NCBI RefSeq assembly: GCF_013391085.1
Contig: NZ_CP058334.1
Span: 1 to 64,000, forward strand
Direction of reading: 5' to 3'
DNA: 64,000 nucleotides
Source: Natronomonas halophila
GTDB lineage: Archaea; Halobacteriota; Halobacteria; Halobacteriales; Haloarculaceae
Both the position numbers and the translations under genes were made by a program. How positions within the stretch are numbered: the first letter of the stretch is position 1; each line of letters opens with the position of its first letter. Below are positions 43-40,782 of the stretch, one piece after another. The notes below the pieces were generated by a model that was given only the letters and a program-made list of their open reading frames with translations, did not search any database and was not told where the DNA came from.

Positions 43-1035
43 ATGACCACTTCGAGCGCTCCCGGGAAGGTCTACCTCTTCGGCGAGCACGCGGTCGTGT
101 ACGGCGAGCCGGCCGTCCCCTGCGCTATCGAGCGGCGGGCACGCGTTACGGTCGAGGAACGCGACGATGACCGTGTCCGCGTCGACGCCGACGAACTCAC
201 GCTGGACGGCTTCACCGTCATGTGGGGCGGCGAGGACGGCGGCCGCCCGGACGTCAACGTCCCGACGCCGCTGGTCGAGGCCGCGATGGGCTATATCGAT
301 AACGCCCTCGAACAGGCGCGGGACGCCGCTGACGCGCCTAACGCAGGATTCAACATCACCGTCGAAAGCGACATTCCACTGGGTGCCGGCCTCGGGTCGT
401 CGGCAGCCGTCGTCGTTGCCGGCATCGACGCCGCGACCCGCGAACTCGGTGTCGAACTCGACCCGATAGAAATCGCCGACCGAGCCTATCAGGTCGAACA
501 CGAGGTGCAGGACGGGCAGGCATCCCGCGCCGACACCTTCTGCTCGGCGATGGGGGGCGTCGTTCGCGTCCAAGGCGACGACTGTCGCGTTATCGAGGGG
601 GTCTCGAATCTGCCGTTCGTCGTCGGCTACGATGGCGGCTCCGGGGATACCGGCGAACTCGTCGCTGGCGTCCGGGAGTTGAAGGAAACCTACGGGTTCG
701 CCGAGGACACGGTCGAAGCTATCGGTGATGTCGTCCGCAACGGTGAGGGCGTGCTTCGTGAGGACGACCTCGAAGAGTTGGGTCGACTAATGAATTTCAA
801 CCACGGCCTGCTTTCGGCTCTCGGCGTCTCCGGACGGAAGTTGGATTCGATGGTCTGGACGGCCCGGGAAGCCGGTGCCCTCGGCGCGAAACTCACCGGG
901 GCCGGCGGCGGCGGGTGTATCGTCGCGCTGGACCGCACCGAACAGACCAGAACGGCGCTCGAATACACGCCCGGGTGTGAAGACGCGTTCCGCGCGGAAC
1001 TCGACACGGACGGTGTCCGGGTGGAATCCGAATGA
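43..1035 (+). CDS. mvk: mevalonate kinase
   Basis: Phosphorylates mevalonate with ATP in the cytoplasmic isoprenoid (archaeal lipid) pathway. It is a GHMP-kinase family protein of about 330 aa, normal for archaeal mevalonate kinases. Visible motifs are APGKVYLFGEH at residues 6-16, the glycine-rich ATP loop GLGSSAA at 116-122, and the C-terminal LTGAGGGGC at 284-292. I chose the ATG 42 nt inside the longer frame because homologues begin with this APGK segment and the upstream codons are not conserved-looking. Its stop overlaps the start of the kinase gene behind it (ATGA), so the two are translationally coupled. The gene lies at the window edge, so its promoter is mostly outside. Identification is secure. 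Confidence 0.95.
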   Translation: MTTSSAPGKVYLFGEHAVVYGEPAVPCAIERRARVTVEERDDDRVRVDADELTLDGFTVMWGGEDGGRPDVNVPTPLVEAAMGYIDNALEQARDAADAPNAGFNITVESDIPLGAGLGSSAAVVVAGIDAATRELGVELDPIEIADRAYQVEHEVQDGQASRADTFCSAMGGVVRVQGDDCRVIEGVSNLPFVVGYDGGSGDTGELVAGVRELKETYGFAEDTVEAIGDVVRNGEGVLREDDLEELGRLMNFNHGLLSALGVSGRKLDSMVWTAREAGALGAKLTGAGGGGCIVALDRTEQTRTALEYTPGCEDAFRAELDTDGVRVESE

Positions 1036-1763
1036 CGACGGTGCTGAAACTCGGCGGTAGCGTCGTTACCGAGAAGGACGAACCGGAGACGGTCGACCGC
1101 GAGAACCTGCGCCGTGCGGCCGATGCTCTTGCAAAATCCGACGAGGAGTTGGTCGTCATCCACGGCGGCGGGAGTTTCGGCCACCACCACGCCGCCGAAC
1201 ACGGCGTCTCGACGACGGATGGGACCCACGACACCGAAGCCGTCCGGGCGATTCACGGCGCGATGAAGGACCTGAACGAAGCGGTCGTGGACGCGCTCGC
1301 GGTGGCCGGCGTTTCGGCTGTTCCTGTCCATCCTTTTTCGGCAGCCAGCCGTAATTCGGCAGGTGACCTTTCCCTACCTACCGACCAACTGGCGACGATG
1401 CTCGACGAGGGATTCACCCCCGTTCTTCACGGCGATGTCGTCGTTCACGAAACCGCTGGCGCGACCATTCTCTCGGGCGACGAACTCGTCGTCGCACTGG
1501 CCGATGCGCTCGATGCGGACCGTGTCGGCGTCTGCTCGGCGGTGCCTGGCGTCTACGATGCCGACGAGAACGTCATCGACCGCATCGACGCCTTCGGTGA
1601 CGTCGCCGATGCGCTCGGTGGTAGCGACGCGACCGACGTGACTGGCGGGATGGCCGCCAAAGTCCGAGAACTCCTCGGTCTCGCTGCGCCCGCCTACGTG
1701 TTCGATATCGACGGCCTCGACGAGTTCATCGCCGGTGAACACCCCGGTACGCGAATCGACTGA
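1032..1763 (+). CDS. ipk: isopentenyl phosphate kinase
   Basis: Converts isopentenyl phosphate to isopentenyl diphosphate, the last phosphorylation of the modified archaeal mevalonate pathway, in which decarboxylation precedes the second phosphorylation. It is an amino-acid-kinase fold protein of 243 aa. The N-terminal KLGGS (residues 6-10) is the phosphate-binding loop. GGGSFGH at 45-51 carries the histidine characteristic of isopentenyl phosphate kinases, which separates them from other members of the fold. The start overlaps the mevalonate kinase stop by 4 nt, so the pair forms an operon for consecutive parts of one pathway. A T-run (TTTTTATA) follows the stop and may terminate the transcript. 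Confidence 0.95.
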   Translation: MTTVLKLGGSVVTEKDEPETVDRENLRRAADALAKSDEELVVIHGGGSFGHHHAAEHGVSTTDGTHDTEAVRAIHGAMKDLNEAVVDALAVAGVSAVPVHPFSAASRNSAGDLSLPTDQLATMLDEGFTPVLHGDVVVHETAGATILSGDELVVALADALDADRVGVCSAVPGVYDADENVIDRIDAFGDVADALGGSDATDVTGGMAAKVRELLGLAAPAYVFDIDGLDEFIAGEHPGTRID

Positions 1764-31141: not shown

Positions 31142-32713
31142 ATGGGGGGACGTACCACGCCACAGTTGGAGACGCTCAGTCGGTTCTATGAGGGGGTCTT
31201 CGACCGGTACGGGAACCGGACGGCGATACGAACGGACCGGCGGCGAATCAGTTACGAAACGTTCGACGAACGGACGCGCCGACTGGCGAATTTCTTCCAC
31301 ACCATCGGGCTCGGGGCCGGCGACGCGGTCGGCATTTTAATGAAGAACAGGGTGGAGTTTCTGACGTCCCTGATCGCCGCCGCTCGGGCAGGTGTGGTCG
31401 CCGTTCCGCTGAACGGTCGGTCGAATACCGACAGGCTCCGGGTAATCTTTCGCGATTTACATCTGGAGGCGCTGATCGTCGGTCCGGAACTCGCCGACCT
31501 CGGTCACGAACTACAGCAGGGCGACCTCGACATCAAATACTTCATCGGCGTCGGTGACGACGCCGACCGACCGCTTGGATTCCACGAGTACGAGTCGATT
31601 TTCGAGCGGGCGGATGACGACTTGCCACCGGTACAGGTACACCCCGACGACGTAGCCGGGATATACTTCACGAGCGGCACGACCGGCGAACCGAAGGGCA
31701 CGCTCCATACCCACGAATCGCTCGTGAAGAACCTGCTCGTCCACTACTTCGAGATGGAGATCACTCACCGAGAGCGACTGCTCTTGGTAACTCCGCTCGG
31801 CCACTCGGCGGGGCTGTTCGCGATGGCCGCACTCGCGAGTGGGGGAACGATATTCCTCGAACAGGAGTTCGACCCGGGGACGGTCGTCCGGCGAATCGAG
31901 GACGACGACATCTCGTGGACGTATCTCGTCCCGAGTATGCTCGCTGACCTGCTGACGTTTACTGACGGTCGACAGGTCGATACGGCGTCGCTGGATACCC
32001 TCGCGTACGGGTCGGGGCCGCTTTCGGCCTCGACGTTACAGGCTGGAATCGAGACGTTCGGAGACGTCTTCATCGGGTTTTACGGACTGACGGAGGTTCC
32101 GAACCTGGTTACGGTCCTCCCGAAGTCCCGGCATGATGCGGCGGATGAAGCGTGGCTCAGGTCGGTCGGGCGGCCCTGTCGGCAGGTGGAGGTCACCGTC
32201 TTCGAGGAGGAAAACGACTGGTCGGGGGATATCGGCGAAATCGGCATTCGGTCCGCATACGAGATGGAGGGATACCTCCGTGACGACCGCGACCTTACCG
32301 GGCGACGACAATGGATTCGAACCGGCGACCTCGGGCGCATCGACGACGAGGGGCGAGTGTTCGTCTTCGAGCGTATCGAGGACAGCATCATCGTCGACGG
32401 CGAGCCGGTCTTTTCCACGGATATCGAGAGCGTCATCGAGCAACGCCCCGATATCACACGGGCTGCCGTTATCGGTGTCCCGGCGGACCCGACGTTGGAC
32501 GTCACCCCCCGGCCGGAGCGGACCGAGCAACGCATCAAGGCGGTCGTCGTTCCCGCCGACGGTACCGAGCCATCGCCGGCCACCGTCCAGACCTACTGTG
32601 CCGAACGGTTACCGGAACGGAAGGTGCCGGATTCGGTCGACCGGGTCGATACGCTGCCCGAGACGCCCTACGGGCAAATCGACAAACAACTCCTCAGGGA
32701 GCCCTACTGGTAA
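31142..32713 (+). CDS. AMP-forming acyl-CoA ligase (paralogue of the ligase at 38475)
   Basis: About 523 aa ANL-superfamily CoA ligase. YFTSGTTGEPKG is the phosphate loop, GFYGLTEVPN the adenine-site motif (QTEVPN in its paralogue, unlike the usual MTE), WIRTGDLGRIDDEG the conserved aspartate region, and TPYGQIDKQLLREPYW the C-terminal lysine segment. The ATG at MGGRTTPQLE is preferred to an in-frame ATG 27 codons upstream. It precedes the HTH-10 regulator gene by 1 nt and flanks the acetone carboxylase operon; activation of acetoacetate or a related beta-keto acid is the likely job. Confidence 0.85.
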   Translation: MGGRTTPQLETLSRFYEGVFDRYGNRTAIRTDRRRISYETFDERTRRLANFFHTIGLGAGDAVGILMKNRVEFLTSLIAAARAGVVAVPLNGRSNTDRLRVIFRDLHLEALIVGPELADLGHELQQGDLDIKYFIGVGDDADRPLGFHEYESIFERADDDLPPVQVHPDDVAGIYFTSGTTGEPKGTLHTHESLVKNLLVHYFEMEITHRERLLLVTPLGHSAGLFAMAALASGGTIFLEQEFDPGTVVRRIEDDDISWTYLVPSMLADLLTFTDGRQVDTASLDTLAYGSGPLSASTLQAGIETFGDVFIGFYGLTEVPNLVTVLPKSRHDAADEAWLRSVGRPCRQVEVTVFEEENDWSGDIGEIGIRSAYEMEGYLRDDRDLTGRRQWIRTGDLGRIDDEGRVFVFERIEDSIIVDGEPVFSTDIESVIEQRPDITRAAVIGVPADPTLDVTPRPERTEQRIKAVVVPADGTEPSPATVQTYCAERLPERKVPDSVDRVDTLPETPYGQIDKQLLREPYW

Positions 32714-32714
32714 C

Positions 32715-33422
32715 ATGCCGTACCGTACGAAGTTCCGCGTCTCACCGACGGGCGTTTTCGCGGCCCTCGACGAGGAGTCGACACGGAGTGGCCGAATCGA
32801 ACTCAGCAGCGCCATCTTCGCGGGCGACGACGAGTGGTTCGAGTTCCTGACCGTCGTCGGCAACCCGGACCTCGACCCGTCGTCGTTGCGGTCCAGAGAC
32901 TGCATCACACACGTACAGCGCGGCGACGTCGAGCAACACCACCGGACGAACCACCTCCTTCTCCGGGTCACGGAGCCGTCGCAGTTCATCGTCACGAAGC
33001 TCACACGGAACAACGCCGTTCCCCATCGGATTTTCCTCAGAGACGGCTACGTGACGGTCATCACGTCCGTCCACGACTGGAACCACGTTCGAAACCTCGC
33101 GGACGTCATCGAGGACGCCTACGCCACCTTCGAGTTGCTCGGCACGACTCAAATCGACGGCGTCGGCCACCCGCTCGGCAGCGACCGACTCTCCTTCGAT
33201 GTCCATGCCGCACTTTCGACGGAACAACTCCGGGTCCTCGAAGCCGCCCACGAGATGGGGATGTTCGAGATACCGCAGGAGGCCACCGGCAAAGAGGTCG
33301 CCGACCGGCTCGACCTCAGCCAGTCGACGGTCAGTGAGAAACTCCGACGCGCCCAGCAGAACATCTGCGAACTCTTCTTCGGTCGTCGCCGGGCCGACGC
33401 CGAACTCCGTGAGGCCGAATAG
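32715..33422 (+). CDS. HTH-10 (bacterio-opsin activator type) transcriptional regulator
   Basis: 235 aa. The N-terminal ~150 residues are the bacterio-opsin-activator-type sensor region (MPYRTKFRVSPTGVFAALDEE...). The C-terminal ~55 residues form HTH-10 (LSTEQLRVLEAAHEMGMFEI... SQSTVSEKLRRAQQNI). Such regulators are haloarchaeal activators of single pathways. It is cotranscribed with the ligase upstream (1-nt gap) and sits before the promoter of the carboxylase operon, in the position AcxR occupies before acxABC in Xanthobacter although the proteins are unrelated. It is therefore the probable activator of that operon. Confidence 0.88.
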   Translation: MPYRTKFRVSPTGVFAALDEESTRSGRIELSSAIFAGDDEWFEFLTVVGNPDLDPSSLRSRDCITHVQRGDVEQHHRTNHLLLRVTEPSQFIVTKLTRNNAVPHRIFLRDGYVTVITSVHDWNHVRNLADVIEDAYATFELLGTTQIDGVGHPLGSDRLSFDVHAALSTEQLRVLEAAHEMGMFEIPQEATGKEVADRLDLSQSTVSEKLRRAQQNICELFFGRRRADAELREAE

Positions 33423-33561
33423 TGCCTAATAAAGGATGATATATATCGAGCGCCTCCGGGCATAACACTTTGCGAATCGATGGTATACGGTGGCTCACAC
33501 CACGATAGGTATTAGCACGCAATGGGGGACGCATCGCTCGGGAACCACAGCCACCTACACA
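33423..33561 (+). promoter_or_regulatory. promoter and leader of the carboxylase operon
   Basis: GATATATAT at 33438-33446 is a strong TATA box about 115 nt before the acxA-like ATG. About 30 nt after it an ATG opens a very short frame (MVYGGSHHDRY, 33480-33515), which could be a leader peptide. The alternative GTG start at 33490 would add 24 non-conserved residues to the carboxylase subunit and is not favoured. Confidence 0.5.
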
Positions 33562-35715
33562 ATGTCAGCAGATCAGCCACACAATCCGGAACTCCTGTCG
33601 CTCGATACGGGGGGAACGATGACGGATACGTTCGTCGTCGACGACGAGGGCGAGTATACGGTCGGCAAGGCGCAGACGACGCCGGACGATGAGAGCGAGG
33701 GTGTCATCAATTCCTACGCCGACGCGCTGGAGTACTGGAACACGACGCTAGCAGAGAGTACCGACACGCTCCGGGGGACCGTCTACTCCGGGACGGCGAT
33801 GATAAACCGACTCCTCGAACGGGAGGGAGATCGAAACATCGGGATCATCACGAACCGGGGAATCGAGGATACACACCGGTTCGGCCGCGGCATCCAGTCG
33901 TGGACCGACCTGTCGTATGCGGGTCGACTCCACGCACGGGAACACGAACACCCCGAACCCATCGTCCCGAGGGAAAACGTCGAGGGGGTCCGCTGTCGCG
34001 TCCACATGTCGGGGCAGGAACTGGCCCCGCTGTACGAGGACGAGGCGCGTGAAGCGATTCACAACCTCCTCGACAGGGACGTACGCGTCATCTGTGTCTC
34101 GTTCCTGTTCTCGTATAAGAACCCGACACACGAACAGCAACTGAAGGAGATCGCCGAAGAGATCAAAGACGAACGCGGCGACGATACGCCGATCTGGCTG
34201 TCGAGCGAGCAGAACCCGGTCCGTGGCGAGACGCCGCGGCTGAACACGCTCGTCATGGAGGCCTACGCGGTTAACCCGTCGCGCGAACAGCTGTTCAGCA
34301 TCGAGGAAGCGCTCGAAGAACACGGCTCCGAAGCCCCGTTCCGGGTGCTTACGTCCTCGGGCGGGACGGTCGCTCCCGACCACGACTGGCTCGCCGATAC
34401 GATGATTTCGGGGCCGATTGGCGGGATTTTCGGCGGTGAGTTCCTCTCCGAGCAACTCGGCGTCGACAACCTCGTCTGTTCGGACGTCGGCGGCACGTCC
34501 TTCGACGTGGGGCTCATCACCAAGGGCCACTACCCGACCCGGTGGGACCAGTCGCTAGCGCAGTTCATGGTCAACATCCCGATGACCGCGATGGACACCA
34601 TCGGGTCCGGGACGGGCAGTTACGTTCGCGTCGACCAGGCCTCGAACCGGCCGGAGGTCGGCCCCGACAGCGCGGGCTATCTCGTCGGCGTCGCCAACGA
34701 GGAAAGCGGGCTGGAGACCCCGACAGTCACCGACTGTACGGCGGTGCTCGGCTACCTCAACCCCGACTACTTCCTCGGCGGCGATATCGACCTGAACGTC
34801 GACCGCGCCCACGAATACATCGAGGACCAGGTGGCGAACCCCCTCGATGCCGGCGTCTACGAGACGGCACGGGGCGTCCTCGATATCGTCGAGCGCGACA
34901 TGACGAACGAACTGCGGGCGATGATTCTCGGGCTCGGGTATAGCCCCGAGAACTACAGCCTCGTCTCCTACGGCGGCGGCGGGCCGCTTCACACGGCGGG
35001 CTACACCGCGCCACTCGATTTCAAGGACGTTCTCGTTCCGGAATGGGCGGCGGCGTTCTCCGCGTTCGGCTGTGCGACCGCCGACTACGCCTACCGATAC
35101 GACCAGTCGCTCGATATCGTCATCCAACCCGACCTGGGGAACGTCGAGGACGTCGCGGGAGCGCTCACCCAGACCTTCCAGAAACTGGAATCACAGGCCC
35201 GTAGCGGCTTCGAAAACGACGAAATCGACGTCGACCAGATGGAGTTCCAGCCGGCCGTCCGGATGCAGTACACGGGGATGCTCGATGACCTCGAAGTGAC
35301 CGTCCCGACCGAGATGTGGGACGGCGAGATTACCGCGGACGACCTTAAGGGGATTATCGAGGCCTACAACGACGAGTTCACGCAGGTCTTCGAACGCGCG
35401 GCACAGAGTCCCGAACTCGGCTACACCGTCACGATGGCTATCGGGACGGGCGTCGCGCCGTCGCCGAACCCGACGCTTCCCAACGAGGACCCTGTCGGTC
35501 CGACACCGCCGGAATCGGCACATAAGGGCGAACGCGCCATCTTCTGGGAGGACGACTGGCACGACGCCGACCTCTGGGAGATGGGCAAACTGAACCCGGG
35601 CAACGCCGTTACCGGGCCGGCCGTCGTCGAGGCTCCCGCCACGACGATGCTGGTTCCGCCGGGCTTCGAGGCATCGCTCGACCGCAACCGAATCTACCAC
35701 CTCACCAATGAGTAA
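33562..35715 (+). CDS. acxA: acetone carboxylase beta-type subunit (HyuA family)
   Basis: 717 aa, hydantoinase A/oxoprolinase family, ATP-binding: LLSLDTGGTMTDTFVVDD at the N-terminus is the phosphate loop and CSDVGGTSFDVGLI (near residue 310) the second ASKHA-fold motif. In acetone carboxylase this subunit phosphorylates the ketone and bicarbonate. The length matches the ~78 kDa beta subunit of Xanthobacter acetone carboxylase. N-methylhydantoinases and acetophenone carboxylases share the fold; the gene order with AcxB and the gamma subunit is what points to acetone carboxylase. It overlaps the next gene by 8 nt. Confidence 0.85.
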   Translation: MSADQPHNPELLSLDTGGTMTDTFVVDDEGEYTVGKAQTTPDDESEGVINSYADALEYWNTTLAESTDTLRGTVYSGTAMINRLLEREGDRNIGIITNRGIEDTHRFGRGIQSWTDLSYAGRLHAREHEHPEPIVPRENVEGVRCRVHMSGQELAPLYEDEAREAIHNLLDRDVRVICVSFLFSYKNPTHEQQLKEIAEEIKDERGDDTPIWLSSEQNPVRGETPRLNTLVMEAYAVNPSREQLFSIEEALEEHGSEAPFRVLTSSGGTVAPDHDWLADTMISGPIGGIFGGEFLSEQLGVDNLVCSDVGGTSFDVGLITKGHYPTRWDQSLAQFMVNIPMTAMDTIGSGTGSYVRVDQASNRPEVGPDSAGYLVGVANEESGLETPTVTDCTAVLGYLNPDYFLGGDIDLNVDRAHEYIEDQVANPLDAGVYETARGVLDIVERDMTNELRAMILGLGYSPENYSLVSYGGGGPLHTAGYTAPLDFKDVLVPEWAAAFSAFGCATADYAYRYDQSLDIVIQPDLGNVEDVAGALTQTFQKLESQARSGFENDEIDVDQMEFQPAVRMQYTGMLDDLEVTVPTEMWDGEITADDLKGIIEAYNDEFTQVFERAAQSPELGYTVTMAIGTGVAPSPNPTLPNEDPVGPTPPESAHKGERAIFWEDDWHDADLWEMGKLNPGNAVTGPAVVEAPATTMLVPPGFEASLDRNRIYHLTNE

Positions 35716-37963
35716 GACAACAGACACGGATACGGCCGCGGAGTACGAGCGCGTCGACCCGCCCATCGGCTGGGACGGGCAGACGCTGCAAGAAATGCTT
35801 GACCACAGCGAGCAGCAACTCGAAGAGACCGGTCGGTACAAGGGTCTCGAAGAGTTGGAGATGAAGGAAAACCAGCCGTTCGAGTACGAGCAGTTGTACT
35901 CGCGGCTGCGCGGCGCGTTGGTCAGCGCTCGCGAGACGGCACTCAACATCAGCGCGTCGGCCATCGTGCGCGAGATTGGCGAACTCTGCTTCCAGTTATA
36001 CACCCCCGAGGGCGACTGTGTCGCCCTCTCGACCGGTATCATCGTCCACGTCCACACCGGAAGCCTCGCGATCAAGTACATGATCGAACAGGATTACGAA
36101 CACCGCCGCGGCATCCAACCCGGCGACGTGTTCTGCAACAACGACAACGATATCGGGAACGTCCACACGACGGACGTTCATACGTTCGTGCCGATTTTCC
36201 ACGACGGCGAGCTAATCGCGTGGGCCGACGGCGTTACCCACGAAATCGACATCGGTGGCAAGACGGCCGGTCACGACCTCATCGACGCGACCGAGCGGTT
36301 CGAGGACGGTCTCTACGCCACCTGTGAGAAAATCGGCGAGAACGACGAACTCTATCAGGACTGGAAGGAACGGGGCAAACGCGGCACCCGGACGCCGATG
36401 TACTGGGACCTCGACGAGAAGTGCCGGCTCGCCGGCTGTCACATGATTCGGAACACGGTCAAGGGCATGATCGATGACGTCGGCGCGGAGACGTTCAAGC
36501 AGTTCATGGCCGAGGCCGTCGAGGAGGGTCGGCAGACCCTCAACGAACGGGTACAGGAACGGCTCTTCCCCGGCACTTACCGCGATACGAGCTTCATGCC
36601 GATGCCGTTCGAGGAGCGTGACCACCCCGAACCCGCCGCGAGTCAGGACATGATGAACCACCTCCCGGTGGAGATGCGTGTCGACACCGACGGCGGACTG
36701 GAGGTGGATATGACCGGTGCGAGTCCGCCCGGCCCACACACCTACAACGCCGCCGAGGGTTCGATGGAGGGCGGCATGTGGGTCTCACTCACCCAATGTC
36801 TGCTCCACGACGGCAAGGTCAACGACGGCTCGTATTTCGCCGTCGATACCAACTACCCGGAGGGAAGCGTCGTCAATCCGCAGGACCCGAGCCTCTCCTA
36901 TCAGGCGTCGTGGGGGTCGATTCAGCCGACGTACAACGCCGTCTGGAAGAACATCTCCCGGAGTTTCCTCGCACGCGGATTCCGCGAGGAGGTCAACGCC
37001 GGGTTCGGCATGACGAGCGACGCCGTTCAGGGCGGCGGCCAGTTGGATGCCACCGGCGAGTACTGGGCCGTCTCGACGTTCGACCTCTCGTGTCAGGGCC
37101 TCGGCGCGAGCGCGGCCCGGGACGGGTTGGACTACGGCTACGCGATGTGGAACCCCGAAAGCGACCTCGGCGACATCGAGAAATGGGAACTGCTCGAACA
37201 CGGCGCGGTCCACCTCGGCCGCCGCGTCAAGCCGAACACGGCCGGCCACGGCAAGTACCGCGGCGGGTCCGGCTGGGAAGGCCTCCGGACGTTCACCGGC
37301 AGTTCGGACATCTCGATGTTCATCGGCGGCTGGGACGGTGTCGGCTTCTCAACGACGGGTATGAGCGGGGGGTACCCCTATGCCTGCGGTTACACCGTAA
37401 CCGCTCAGGATACGGACTTCGCCGAGCGTATCGCCAAACAGGAGAAATATCCGGTCGACGACACGCCGCCCGGCTCGCTCGAAGAGGATATCGAGGCGGA
37501 GGACGTGGACCGCTCGACGGCGGCGGTGCTGTTCCCGACCCAGTTCGACAACAACGACCTGTTGCACTGGGATATGCGCGGCGGCCCGGGCTACGGCGAC
37601 CCGCTCGAACGCCCCGTCGAGAAACTCGTCGACGACGCCGAGAAGGGAATCTACACCCCCGACGTCATCGAGGACGTCTACGGCGTCGTCGGTGAACTCG
37701 ACGAGGAAGACCGGGAGTTCGAAGTCGACGAGGAGGCGACCGAGGCCCGGCGGGAAGAACTCCGCGAGGAACGCGAAGCCGAGTCGGTCCCGGCGACGGA
37801 GTTCTGGGAGTCCGAACGCGAACGCGTGTTGGACCGGGAGTTCAGCGACCCCGTCACGTGGATGTACAGCGGCGTGTTCGAGCGGTCCCCCGAGTGGACC
37901 GAGTCCTTCCGGGAGTTCTGGGACCTGCCCGCCGATTACTCGATTTCCGAGGAGGAGGCCTGA
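35708..37963 (+). CDS. acxB: acetone carboxylase alpha-type subunit (HyuB family)
   Basis: 751 aa, hydantoinase B/oxoprolinase family. H153 and D156 in NVHTTDVH and H178 in GVTHEIDIGG have the same mutual spacing (3 and 22) that I recall for the Mn ligands (His, Asp, His) of the Xanthobacter alpha subunit, so the metal site seems conserved. This subunit joins carboxyphosphate-derived CO2 to the activated enol. Its acidic C-terminal ~100 residues are a haloarchaeal-looking extension. It is translationally coupled to the beta-type subunit by an 8-nt overlap and followed after 4 nt by the gamma subunit. Confidence 0.85.
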   Translation: MSKTTDTDTAAEYERVDPPIGWDGQTLQEMLDHSEQQLEETGRYKGLEELEMKENQPFEYEQLYSRLRGALVSARETALNISASAIVREIGELCFQLYTPEGDCVALSTGIIVHVHTGSLAIKYMIEQDYEHRRGIQPGDVFCNNDNDIGNVHTTDVHTFVPIFHDGELIAWADGVTHEIDIGGKTAGHDLIDATERFEDGLYATCEKIGENDELYQDWKERGKRGTRTPMYWDLDEKCRLAGCHMIRNTVKGMIDDVGAETFKQFMAEAVEEGRQTLNERVQERLFPGTYRDTSFMPMPFEERDHPEPAASQDMMNHLPVEMRVDTDGGLEVDMTGASPPGPHTYNAAEGSMEGGMWVSLTQCLLHDGKVNDGSYFAVDTNYPEGSVVNPQDPSLSYQASWGSIQPTYNAVWKNISRSFLARGFREEVNAGFGMTSDAVQGGGQLDATGEYWAVSTFDLSCQGLGASAARDGLDYGYAMWNPESDLGDIEKWELLEHGAVHLGRRVKPNTAGHGKYRGGSGWEGLRTFTGSSDISMFIGGWDGVGFSTTGMSGGYPYACGYTVTAQDTDFAERIAKQEKYPVDDTPPGSLEEDIEAEDVDRSTAAVLFPTQFDNNDLLHWDMRGGPGYGDPLERPVEKLVDDAEKGIYTPDVIEDVYGVVGELDEEDREFEVDEEATEARREELREEREAESVPATEFWESERERVLDREFSDPVTWMYSGVFERSPEWTESFREFWDLPADYSISEEEA

Positions 37964-37967
37964 TACG

Positions 37968-38474
37968 ATGTCGACGAAAAACGACAAGGAGACCATCCGG
38001 AACCTGATCGACGGAACCCTCTCGTGGGAAGAACTCCGGAACGACGTGCTTCCCGACCCGAAGGCGTCGAACCGGTTCGAAGTCGTCAGGGAGGTACTCG
38101 AGGAGCGCGTCGACTGGGACGAACCGATCCTCGTCCCGCTCAACGACCACCTCTTCGTCGTCGGCAGCGACGACGGCCGGCTCGTCAAGGCCGAGTGCGG
38201 CCACGAACTCTGCTCGACCGACGAGAACTGGAAGCTCCACACCGAGGTGCGGGTTCGGGAGGACCCAGACCAGTTCGAGGAGCTGTACACTGAACAGCAG
38301 TCGCCCCATCCCGACTGGGGTTTCCAGCTTCGGGAGTTCTTCTGTCCCGGCTGTTACCAGCTCGTCGAGGTCGAGGCCGTCCCGACCGGCTATCCGATCC
38401 TCGAGAAGTTCGAACCGGACATCGACGCGTTCTACGAGGAGTGGCTCGAAACGACGCCGCCGGACCGAAGATAG
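37968..38474 (+). CDS. acxC: acetone carboxylase gamma subunit
   Basis: 168 aa, the length of the characterised ~20 kDa gamma subunit. Cysteine/histidine motifs AECGHELC (near residue 75) and FFCPGCYQLVEVE (near 130) suggest a structural zinc site. The presence of this small subunit distinguishes acetone carboxylases from hydantoinases and oxoprolinases, which lack it. It is required for the alpha2beta2gamma2 complex. The gene starts 4 nt after acxB and touches the following acyl-CoA ligase gene directly, with no intervening base. Confidence 0.85.
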   Translation: MSTKNDKETIRNLIDGTLSWEELRNDVLPDPKASNRFEVVREVLEERVDWDEPILVPLNDHLFVVGSDDGRLVKAECGHELCSTDENWKLHTEVRVREDPDQFEELYTEQQSPHPDWGFQLREFFCPGCYQLVEVEAVPTGYPILEKFEPDIDAFYEEWLETTPPDRR

Positions 38475-40058
38475 ATGACACCGCCTACGAACGCACGCTC
38501 GGTTAAATCCCTGTTCGAGACGAGCCTCAGACGCTACGCGGACCGCGTCGCGGTACGTGTCGACGGTACGGAGGTCACGTACGGCGAGTTAGACGAGCGT
38601 GCCAACGCCGTCGCCAGGGAACTGGCACGGCTGGGTGTCGACCCCGAAGACCGGGTCGGTCTCCTGACCTCGAACTGCCTCGAATACGTCATCGCCGACC
38701 TCGCGCTCGTGAAAGCCGGCGCGGCCAAGATCCCGCTCAACGACATGTTGACGCCCGAGGAGTTCGAGTACATCCTCGACGATGCGGGCGTCGAAACGGT
38801 CGTCTGCGGGCCGGCGTTCGTCGATACCGTCGACGACTTGTACGGGGCACTCGACGCACTCGAGACGGTCATCGCCATCGACGATGGCCAACCGCTGCCG
38901 GAGAACTTCGAGTCGTTTGCCGACCTCGACGGGCGTGCTGACACGCCGCCGGACGTCACGCCGTCCCCCGATGCCGTCGCCGGCCACTACTACACCGGCG
39001 GGACGACCGGCGACCCGAAGGGGGTCATCCACACCCAGGAGGGGTTGGCGATGGCCATGTACTCACACATCATCGAGGTCGGAATTACGGGCGACGATAC
39101 GATGTTGCTCATGACGCCGCTCCCGCATTCGGCCGGCGCCTTCCTGTGGGCGGGGCTGTTGAGCGGTGCGAGTGCCATCATTCACGACGGCTTCGAGCCC
39201 ACACGCGCCCTGGAGAGTATCGAGACCCACGACGTGACGTGGACGTTCATGGTCCCGACGATGATTTATCGGCTCCTCGACCACGAGGACCTCCAGTCGA
39301 CCGAGACCGACTCGCTGTCGACGCTCACGTACGGTGCCGCACCGATGACACCGGCCCGACTCCGTGAGGGACTGGACGTGTTCGGTCCGGTATTCCTGCA
39401 GTTCTACGGGCAGACGGAGGTCCCCAACGTCATCACGACGCTCGGCAAGGCCGAACATCGACTCGCCATCGAGAACGGCGACGAACACCGGCTTTCCTCG
39501 GCCGGACAACCGTGTCTCATGTCCGACGTCAGAATCGTGGACCCCGAGACCAGCGACCCCGTAGCGCCCGGCGAGGAAGGCGAGATACTCGCGACCGCGC
39601 CCTACGCGATGACCGAGTACTTCGAGCGCCCCGAGAAGACCGCGGAGACGCTGGTCGACGGCTGGGTCCGAACCGGTGATATCGGCCGTATCGACGAGGA
39701 CGGCTACGTTTACCTGCTGGACCGGGCCAGTAACATGATTATCACCGGCGGTATGAACGTCTACTCGACGGAAGTCGAGGAGGTGCTGGACGAACACCCG
39801 GATATCCAGCAGGTCGCGGTCATCGGGACGCCGGACGACGAGTGGGGTGAACTGGTGACGGCCGTCGTCGTACCGCACGACGGCACCGACCTGACGGACG
39901 CAGAAATCAGGAAGTTCGCCGACGACCGGTTGGCCGACTACAAACGACCGAAACGCGTCGAGTTCATCGACGAGATTCCGAAGACGCCCTACGGGAAGAT
40001 GGACAAGAAGGCGCTTCGGGAACCCTACTGGGAAGACACGGCCCGAGAAATCGGCTAA
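38475..40058 (+). CDS. AMP-forming acyl-CoA ligase, probable acetoacetate-CoA ligase
   Basis: 527 aa CoA ligase with intact motifs: YYTGGTTGDPKG, QFYGQTEVPN, WVRTGDIGRIDEDG, ASNMIITGGMNVYS, and the C-terminal lysine in KTPYGKMDKKALREPYW. Its start codon directly follows the acxC stop, so it belongs to the carboxylase operon, where the product acetoacetate must be activated to acetoacetyl-CoA. It is the closest in-window relative of the ligase at 31142 (shared TEVPN and LREPYW). A different beta-keto acid is possible if the carboxylase uses another ketone. Confidence 0.85.
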   Translation: MTPPTNARSVKSLFETSLRRYADRVAVRVDGTEVTYGELDERANAVARELARLGVDPEDRVGLLTSNCLEYVIADLALVKAGAAKIPLNDMLTPEEFEYILDDAGVETVVCGPAFVDTVDDLYGALDALETVIAIDDGQPLPENFESFADLDGRADTPPDVTPSPDAVAGHYYTGGTTGDPKGVIHTQEGLAMAMYSHIIEVGITGDDTMLLMTPLPHSAGAFLWAGLLSGASAIIHDGFEPTRALESIETHDVTWTFMVPTMIYRLLDHEDLQSTETDSLSTLTYGAAPMTPARLREGLDVFGPVFLQFYGQTEVPNVITTLGKAEHRLAIENGDEHRLSSAGQPCLMSDVRIVDPETSDPVAPGEEGEILATAPYAMTEYFERPEKTAETLVDGWVRTGDIGRIDEDGYVYLLDRASNMIITGGMNVYSTEVEEVLDEHPDIQQVAVIGTPDDEWGELVTAVVVPHDGTDLTDAEIRKFADDRLADYKRPKRVEFIDEIPKTPYGKMDKKALREPYWEDTAREIG

Positions 40059-40200: not shown

Positions 40201-40782
40201 ATGAACGAGATTCGTGTCGCCGCGATAGTCGGGAGCCTTCGCGAGCGGAGTTACACGCGCTCCGCCTGCGAGGAGGCGCTGGCGGCGGCGAACGACTTCG
40301 ACCGCGTCGAGACGGACCTGATAGACCTGCGAGGCTTCGAGTTGCCGGTCTTCGACGCGGACGACGACACGGCGGGCGATGCCGACGAACTCCGCGAGCG
40401 GGTGTACGCGGCCGATGCGATAATCCTCGGGACGCCCGTCTATCACGGCTCGTTTTCCTCGGCGCTGAAGAACGCCCTGGACTACTGCGGGTTCGACGAG
40501 TTCGAGAACACGACGGTCGGCCTGCTCTGTGTGGCCGGCGGGTCGTTCCCGACGACGACGCTGGACCAGTTGCGTGGCGTCTGTCGGGCGCTGAACGCGT
40601 GGGTCGTTCCCCATCAGGTCGCGGTGCCGCGCGTTCGCAACGCCTTCGAGGACGGCGAGTTAGTCGACGAGGACGTTCGCGGGCGTATCGACACGCTCGG
40701 CCGTCGGATGGTCGAATACGCGAACATCGAACCGGACCCGCGGACGATAGAGGCCCAGCAGAACTTCGGCGCCGACGATTAG
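40201..40782 (+). CDS. NADPH-dependent FMN reductase-like flavoprotein (paralogue)
   Basis: 193 aa flavodoxin-fold protein with FMN loop IVGSLRERSYTRSA and the signature TPVYHGSFSSALKNALDYCG. It is closely related to the protein at 23787 along its full length (shared DYCGFDEFE, TTVGLL, AWVxPHQVA). Unlike that copy it has no HxlR gene beside it and has its own TATA box. Its stop overlaps the end of the convergent lipoprotein gene by 4 nt. It reduces flavin, quinone or related electron acceptors with NAD(P)H. Confidence 0.87.
   Translation: MNEIRVAAIVGSLRERSYTRSACEEALAAANDFDRVETDLIDLRGFELPVFDADDDTAGDADELRERVYAADAIILGTPVYHGSFSSALKNALDYCGFDEFENTTVGLLCVAGGSFPTTTLDQLRGVCRALNAWVVPHQVAVPRVRNAFEDGELVDEDVRGRIDTLGRRMVEYANIEPDPRTIEAQQNFGADD

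Follow-up and report, generated by a model that had tools for sequence, protein, structure and literature searches.

A predicted biotin-free ketone carboxylase operon with its own CoA ligase in the haloarchaeon Natronomonas halophila

The closest described counterpart of the gene cluster analyzed here is acetone carboxylase of Xanthobacter autotrophicus Py2 (AcxABC; PDB entries 5M45, 5SVB, and 5SVC), for which the roles of individual residues have been reported (PMC5543143, PMC10865871). Acetophenone carboxylase of Aromatoleum aromaticum (ApcABCDE; 5L9W) belongs to the same superfamily, shares the type of chemistry, and has a γ-like small subunit, but contains additional α′- and ε-subunits and another ketone pocket. 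Hydantoinases, 5-oxoprolinases, and caprolactamases (6YRA, 7HK5, CapAB) have the HyuA/HyuB folds and adenosine triphosphate (ATP)-dependent carbonyl activation in common with these carboxylases, but catalyze hydrolysis instead of carboxylation and have no γ-subunit. The cluster, composed of six genes, occupies positions 31142–40058 (+ strand) of a 64,000-nucleotide stretch of Natronomonas halophila DNA (contig NZ_CP058334.1; hereafter, the window), so that the halophilic archaeal host predicted in a preliminary description of this DNA is the actual one. We consider it likely, with a probability of about 0.75, that these genes specify a biotin-free carboxylase that uses ATP and acts on acetone or on some other small aliphatic methyl ketone, together with a dedicated adenosine monophosphate (AMP)-forming ligase for its product. 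The data supporting this assignment are homology, gene order, conservation of the metal ligands and ATP motifs, and an exclusive ligase clade.

The core of the locus is a β–α–γ block (33562–38474, + strand) in the same gene order as acxABC, with predicted subunits of 717, 751, and 168 residues versus 717, 776, and 168 in the PDB entries of the X. autotrophicus enzyme, the α-subunit thus being 25 residues shorter. The reading frame of the β-subunit (AcxA/HyuA type, 33562–35715; Hydantoinase_A, E = 2e-75) overlaps by 8 nucleotides with that of the α-subunit (AcxB/HyuB type, 35708–37963; Hydantoinase_B), which is separated by 4 nucleotides from that of the γ-subunit (AcxC type, 37968–38474). Immediately 3′ of the latter, with a gap of 0 nucleotides and in distinction from X. 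autotrophicus, lies the gene of an AMP-forming coenzyme A (CoA) ligase (ligase 2, 38475–40058, 527 residues; PF00501, E = 9.4e-82) with intact motifs. The order and sizes of the subunits, as well as the positions and the overlapping or near-zero spacings of all six genes, agree with the preliminary description, and the profile PF08882 (Acetone_carb_G), which it had proposed as a check, matches the γ-subunit with E = 3.8e-36 and 124 bits (cut-off, 21). This is the single PF08882 match in the whole 3.21-Mb genome; of 394 genomes sampled from the class, 38 contain the family.

In searches against solved structures, all three subunits found their best relatives in X. autotrophicus acetone carboxylase (β, 5m45_B, 698 bits, E = 1e-208; α, 5m45_A, 634 bits, E = 3e-189; γ, 5m45_C, 135 bits, E = 2e-38). 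A hydrolytic function as ATP-dependent hydantoinase, oxoprolinase, or caprolactamase could be read from the HyuA and HyuB Pfam domains of the large subunits, since these are common to the whole superfamily; it is hardly credible, because the solved hydantoinase and oxoprolinase chains reach just 66–257 bits against 634–698 bits for acetone carboxylase, and because hydantoinases have no γ-subunit (PMC5214803), whereas the window has one, directly followed by a CoA ligase. A carboxylase of the acetophenone type, acting on aromatic ketones, is also very improbable, if slightly less so. The superfamily is common to both, and the NCBIfam Apc models do match the γ- and large subunits, but far under their equivalog cut-offs; the acetophenone carboxylase chains score far lower than those of acetone carboxylase for all three subunits, and neither an α′- (ApcA) nor an ε-subunit (ApcE) is encoded at 31–41 kb of the window. 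Moreover, true Apc-like clusters of five genes exist separately in haloarchaea. We observed these at L048, L049, and L054–L057 among the loci compared (ApcA, an ApcE-like protein of 318 residues, ApcB, ApcC, and ApcD, with scores under the equivalog cut-offs). An adjacency that could favor an acetophenone-type function is found in Haloglomus halophilum (L080, 4862–22200), where an operon of the same type as that of the window, with two tandem α genes and two ligases, adjoins an Apc-like cluster.

The active-site residues were then compared on the numbering of the X. autotrophicus enzyme. The metal ligands of the α-subunit (Glu89, His150, Asp153, and His175; PMC5543143) are all kept in the window, as is the nearby His111, and the β-subunit carries the ASKHA ATP motifs DTGGTMTD, DVGGTSFD, and SGPIGG (PHOSPHATE 1, PHOSPHATE 2, and ADENOSINE; PMC5214803). 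In the kinase-like subunit, at the positions that make up the ketone pocket according to the work on Apc (PMC5214803), the window has Ile, Met, Ile, Pro, Leu, Ala, and Met, nearly identical to the Leu, Ile, Val, Pro, Met, Ala, and Met of Acx, and unlike the Leu, Phe, Asn, Pro, Ile, Gln, and Thr of Apc. Because the pocket resembles that of Acx and not that of Apc, a small aliphatic ketone is favored over an aromatic one, and the acetone-carboxylase type proposed in the preliminary description is borne out by the three subunits, the Mn ligands, the ATP motifs, and the acetone-like pocket. An AlphaFold2 model of the α-subunit based on 20 relatives was set aside (mean predicted local distance difference test score, 59; predicted template modeling score, 0.55).

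Two sites near the catalytic center depart from the proven enzyme. In X. autotrophicus, the contact of α-Glu85 with β-Asn578 breaks on nucleotide binding, which has been proposed to open an internal channel (PMC5543143). This latch is Glu:Asn in all 25 loci compared of the Acx type and of a second haloarchaeal type described below (X-type), but Arg85:Asp578 in the window; among the loci of the window type (W-type) and near it, it is Arg:Asp in 22 (some of them one genome reached twice), Arg:Glu in 5, and Arg:Asn in 1. The paired Arg:Asp change looks compensatory and suggests that the same gate may have been rebuilt as a salt bridge; as the independent changes on the tree are few, it would fit coevolution but does not amount to a statistical proof. 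In addition, of the four Trp residues proposed as a metal-selectivity filter (PMC10865871), the window retains Trp401 and Trp479, while Trp408 and Trp438 are replaced by Tyr and Ala. Since both the latch and the metal-side aromatic patch differ, the enzyme may deviate from Acx in its gating, its preferred metal, or the range of its substrates. The γ-subunit keeps Cys76, Cys124, and Cys127 of the Cys4 Zn site, with Ala in place of Cys74; several bacterial γ-subunits in the Acx clade (L067, L102, and L104) retain even fewer of the Zn cysteines than the window does, so that the Cys4 site is not strictly defining.

Phylogenetic analysis of 66 α-subunits (by a quick method, with Shimodaira–Hasegawa-like approximate likelihood ratio test supports and a long-branch warning for some outer rows) placed the window in the W-type clade of 16 haloarchaeal rows (support, 100), which is extended to 19 rows (support, 99) by a Desulfarculaceae locus (L088) and two genomes of the same phylum but outside the class (G614 and G487). 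The X-type, on the other hand, is the sister group of bacterial AcxB including that of X. autotrophicus (support, 99). Both types form haloarchaeal β–α–γ–ligase operons with a helix-turn-helix (HTH) protein, but the X-type (e.g., that on a Natronorubrum aibiense plasmid, L101) belongs to the other carboxylase clade, has a longer α-subunit, and retains Glu85:Asn578 and the four Trp residues. Its operon consists of genes for the β-subunit, an α-subunit of 815–850 residues, the γ-subunit, usually a ligase, a VOC protein, an HTH protein, a protein of 132 residues, and a second α-subunit. In five such operons (L032, L033, L035, L041, and L101), two α (HyuB) genes were observed, the second located behind the genes for the VOC, HTH, and 132-residue proteins, the last of which has no Pfam match. 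Further carboxylase types were also seen. L061 (1–3040) represents a third lineage, with an α-subunit ~42% identical to all others, a γ-subunit nearest to the X-type, and a ligase nearest to the W-type (64%), and L060, L063, L064, and L066 constitute a small type with β-, α-, and γ-subunits of ~695, 650, and ~100 residues at ~25–35% identity to the window.

Several observations weigh against acetone as the substrate, and to some extent against the assignment as a whole. The window α-subunit stands outside the clade formed by the proven acetone carboxylases and the X-type, the identities to X. autotrophicus AcxABC are just 42.9, 46.0, and 42.0% for the α-, β-, and γ-subunits, the four-Trp patch is incomplete as described above, and no conserved alcohol dehydrogenase or transporter was found in the operon flanks. 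We know of no member of the window clade that has been assayed. It is conceivable, although we hold it to be clearly the weaker reading, that the natural substrate of the window enzyme is a larger or different ketone and that in haloarchaea it is the X-type that serves as acetone carboxylase. The X-type, not the W-type, is sister to the proven enzymes and keeps all four Trp residues; a gene for a Zn alcohol dehydrogenase immediately precedes one X-type operon (L072), and another (L069) has a short-chain fatty acid transporter; the site could be wider owing to the smaller residues at positions 408 and 438; and motif A5 differs between the W- and X-type ligases. Furthermore, Halovenus carboxidivorans and Halorientalis regularis hold both types, a coexistence that suggests different roles or substrates. 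Conversely, pocket position 344 is Ala in the window as in the proven acetone carboxylase, while most X-type enzymes (Leu, Leu, Ile, Pro, Met, Asn, and Met at the pocket positions) have Asn there. One enzyme may also serve several ketones, given that the A. aromaticum acetone carboxylase is reported to take butanone as well (Schuhle and Heider 2012, cited in PMC7888143). Within the assignment to a small aliphatic methyl ketone, acetone is plausible but unproven, and the use of acetone or propan-2-ol put forward in the preliminary description is not established, in view of the position outside the Acx and X-type clade, the two genomes with both types, and the absence of an alcohol dehydrogenase from the operon.

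The ligases of these operons point to a common downstream step. When 25 further AMP-binding stretches of this genome, some of them partial, were included in a tree, the two ligases of the window and their W- and X-type counterparts (ligase 1, W-type ligase 2, and X-type ligase 2) formed one clade of 25 rows (support, 100), inside which none of the 25 other ligases of the genome fell. The W- and X-type ligases 2 are mutual nearest kin (support, 90), though their carboxylases are not sisters. In the sequence stretches around the loci, no related ligase was found at any of nine proteobacterial loci or in L088–L090; a distant one is present at three outer loci. That this exclusive clade accompanies three carboxylase lineages (W-type, X-type, and L061 with its W-type ligase) supports the view that these ligases are dedicated to the 3-oxoacid product, consistent with the operon-bound CoA ligase claimed before. 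The simplest reading would be that a CoA ligase module for 3-oxoacids, of haloarchaeal type, has been joined to several ketone carboxylases. We regard as doubtful, somewhat more so than the different-ketone reading, the wider view that the W-type enzymes form a branch of their own among ketone carboxylases, having a charge-swapped gate, a relaxed metal pocket, and specificity for a ketone other than acetone, and that their ligase module has moved among at least three carboxylase lineages. Ligase 2 probably activates the 3-oxoacid product. It falls on the FadD8-like/PRK06187 side and scores 33 bits with the acetoacetyl-CoA synthetase model TIGR01217 (cut-off, 520.9), which no protein of the genome passes; it is not a classical acetoacetyl-CoA synthetase, and acetoacetate is a predicted substrate.

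By analogy with the X. autotrophicus structures, the β-subunit would phosphorylate the ketone, as its enol, with ATP to a phosphoenol ketone, and bicarbonate would be phosphorylated at the same site. Through the internal channel, the intermediates would reach the α-subunit, at whose divalent metal the C–C bond would be formed to give a 3-oxoacid (acetoacetate, if the ketone is acetone), with the γ-subunit presumably completing the complex. Ligase 2 would then form the CoA thioester, and a cellular thiolase could split the 3-oxoacyl-CoA to acetyl-CoA; the genome encodes three thiolases above the cut-off and one protein with a CoA-transferase domain.

The complete order ligase–HTH_10–β–α–γ–ligase was found again at four other haloarchaeal loci, in Natronomonas sp. 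CBA1123 (L045/L078), Halorientalis pallida (L046/L077), Halovenus carboxidivorans (L051/L074), and a genome of another family (L050), with 67–77% identity to the window in the β- and α-subunits, whereas the remaining relatives retain just β–α–γ–ligase or β–α–γ. This identical order, together with the E-values, excludes chance. The first gene, for ligase 1 (31142–32713, 523 residues; PF00501, E = 7.7e-67), has the AMP-forming acyl-CoA ligase fold, so that the second ligase of the preliminary description is present as a gene and a fold, but the catalytic Lys of motif A10 is replaced by Gln (codon CAA, 32675–32677) and the enzyme may be inactive. The residue is Lys in all five distinct orthologs and Gln in the window genome only, and the terminal branch of ligase 1 is the longest within its clade. 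The protein may be inactive, decaying, or reused, e.g., in sensing; as one base is enough for the change, a sequencing error is also possible.

The gene between ligase 1 and the β-subunit (32715–33422, 235 residues), 1 nucleotide behind ligase 1, encodes a transcription regulator with HTH_10 and BAT domains (PF04967, E = 5.1e-14; PF15915, E = 2e-6), whereas most of the proteobacterial relatives examined have a sigma-54 regulator upstream of acx. It lies at the identical position in the four other six-gene loci, a homolog occurs in X-type operons too, and the protein probably controls the operon. The previously claimed activator hence stands as a regulator at a conserved position, whereas activation itself is suggested by its domains and that position alone. 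In the intergenic region of 139 nucleotides 5′ of the β-subunit gene (33423–33561), an AT-rich stretch, GATATATATC, is common to the window and L050 when compared by eye, and offers a weak lead as a candidate promoter or operator. Promoter and terminator scans gave matches no more frequent than chance.

Neither the family nor its reaction is new, and RefSeq already names the γ-subunit on some haloarchaeal plasmids. What is new is the W-type clade with its swapped latch and altered patch, its split from that of the X-type, and the exclusive clade of ligases common to both. A literature search, out of whose reach most subscription papers lay, returned no paper linking acetone carboxylase to haloarchaea, nor anything specific on the use of acetone by them. 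If active, the enzyme would enable haloarchaea in brines to use acetone or related ketones by fixing CO2, and it would be a biotin-free carboxylase adapted to salt. The replacement of Glu:Asn by Arg:Asp is a natural variant that makes the channel-gating allosteric mechanism directly testable.

Outside the six genes, nothing is conserved in the flanks of the window operon and the other W-type operons, which contain genes for a helicase, a tRNA synthetase, IclR regulators, and others. On the same strand as ligase 2, 142 nucleotides 3′ of it, is a gene of the NADPH-dependent FMN reductase family (40201–40782), which was dropped as a part of the operon on account of this gap and because it was not seen as a conserved neighbor in relatives. 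At the beginning of the window (43–1763), a GHMP kinase gene stands beside that of a protein with the amino-acid-kinase fold, followed by genes for two more acyl-CoA ligases and an acyl-CoA dehydrogenase; such a pair would be expected of archaeal mevalonate-pathway genes (kinase and isopentenyl phosphate kinase).

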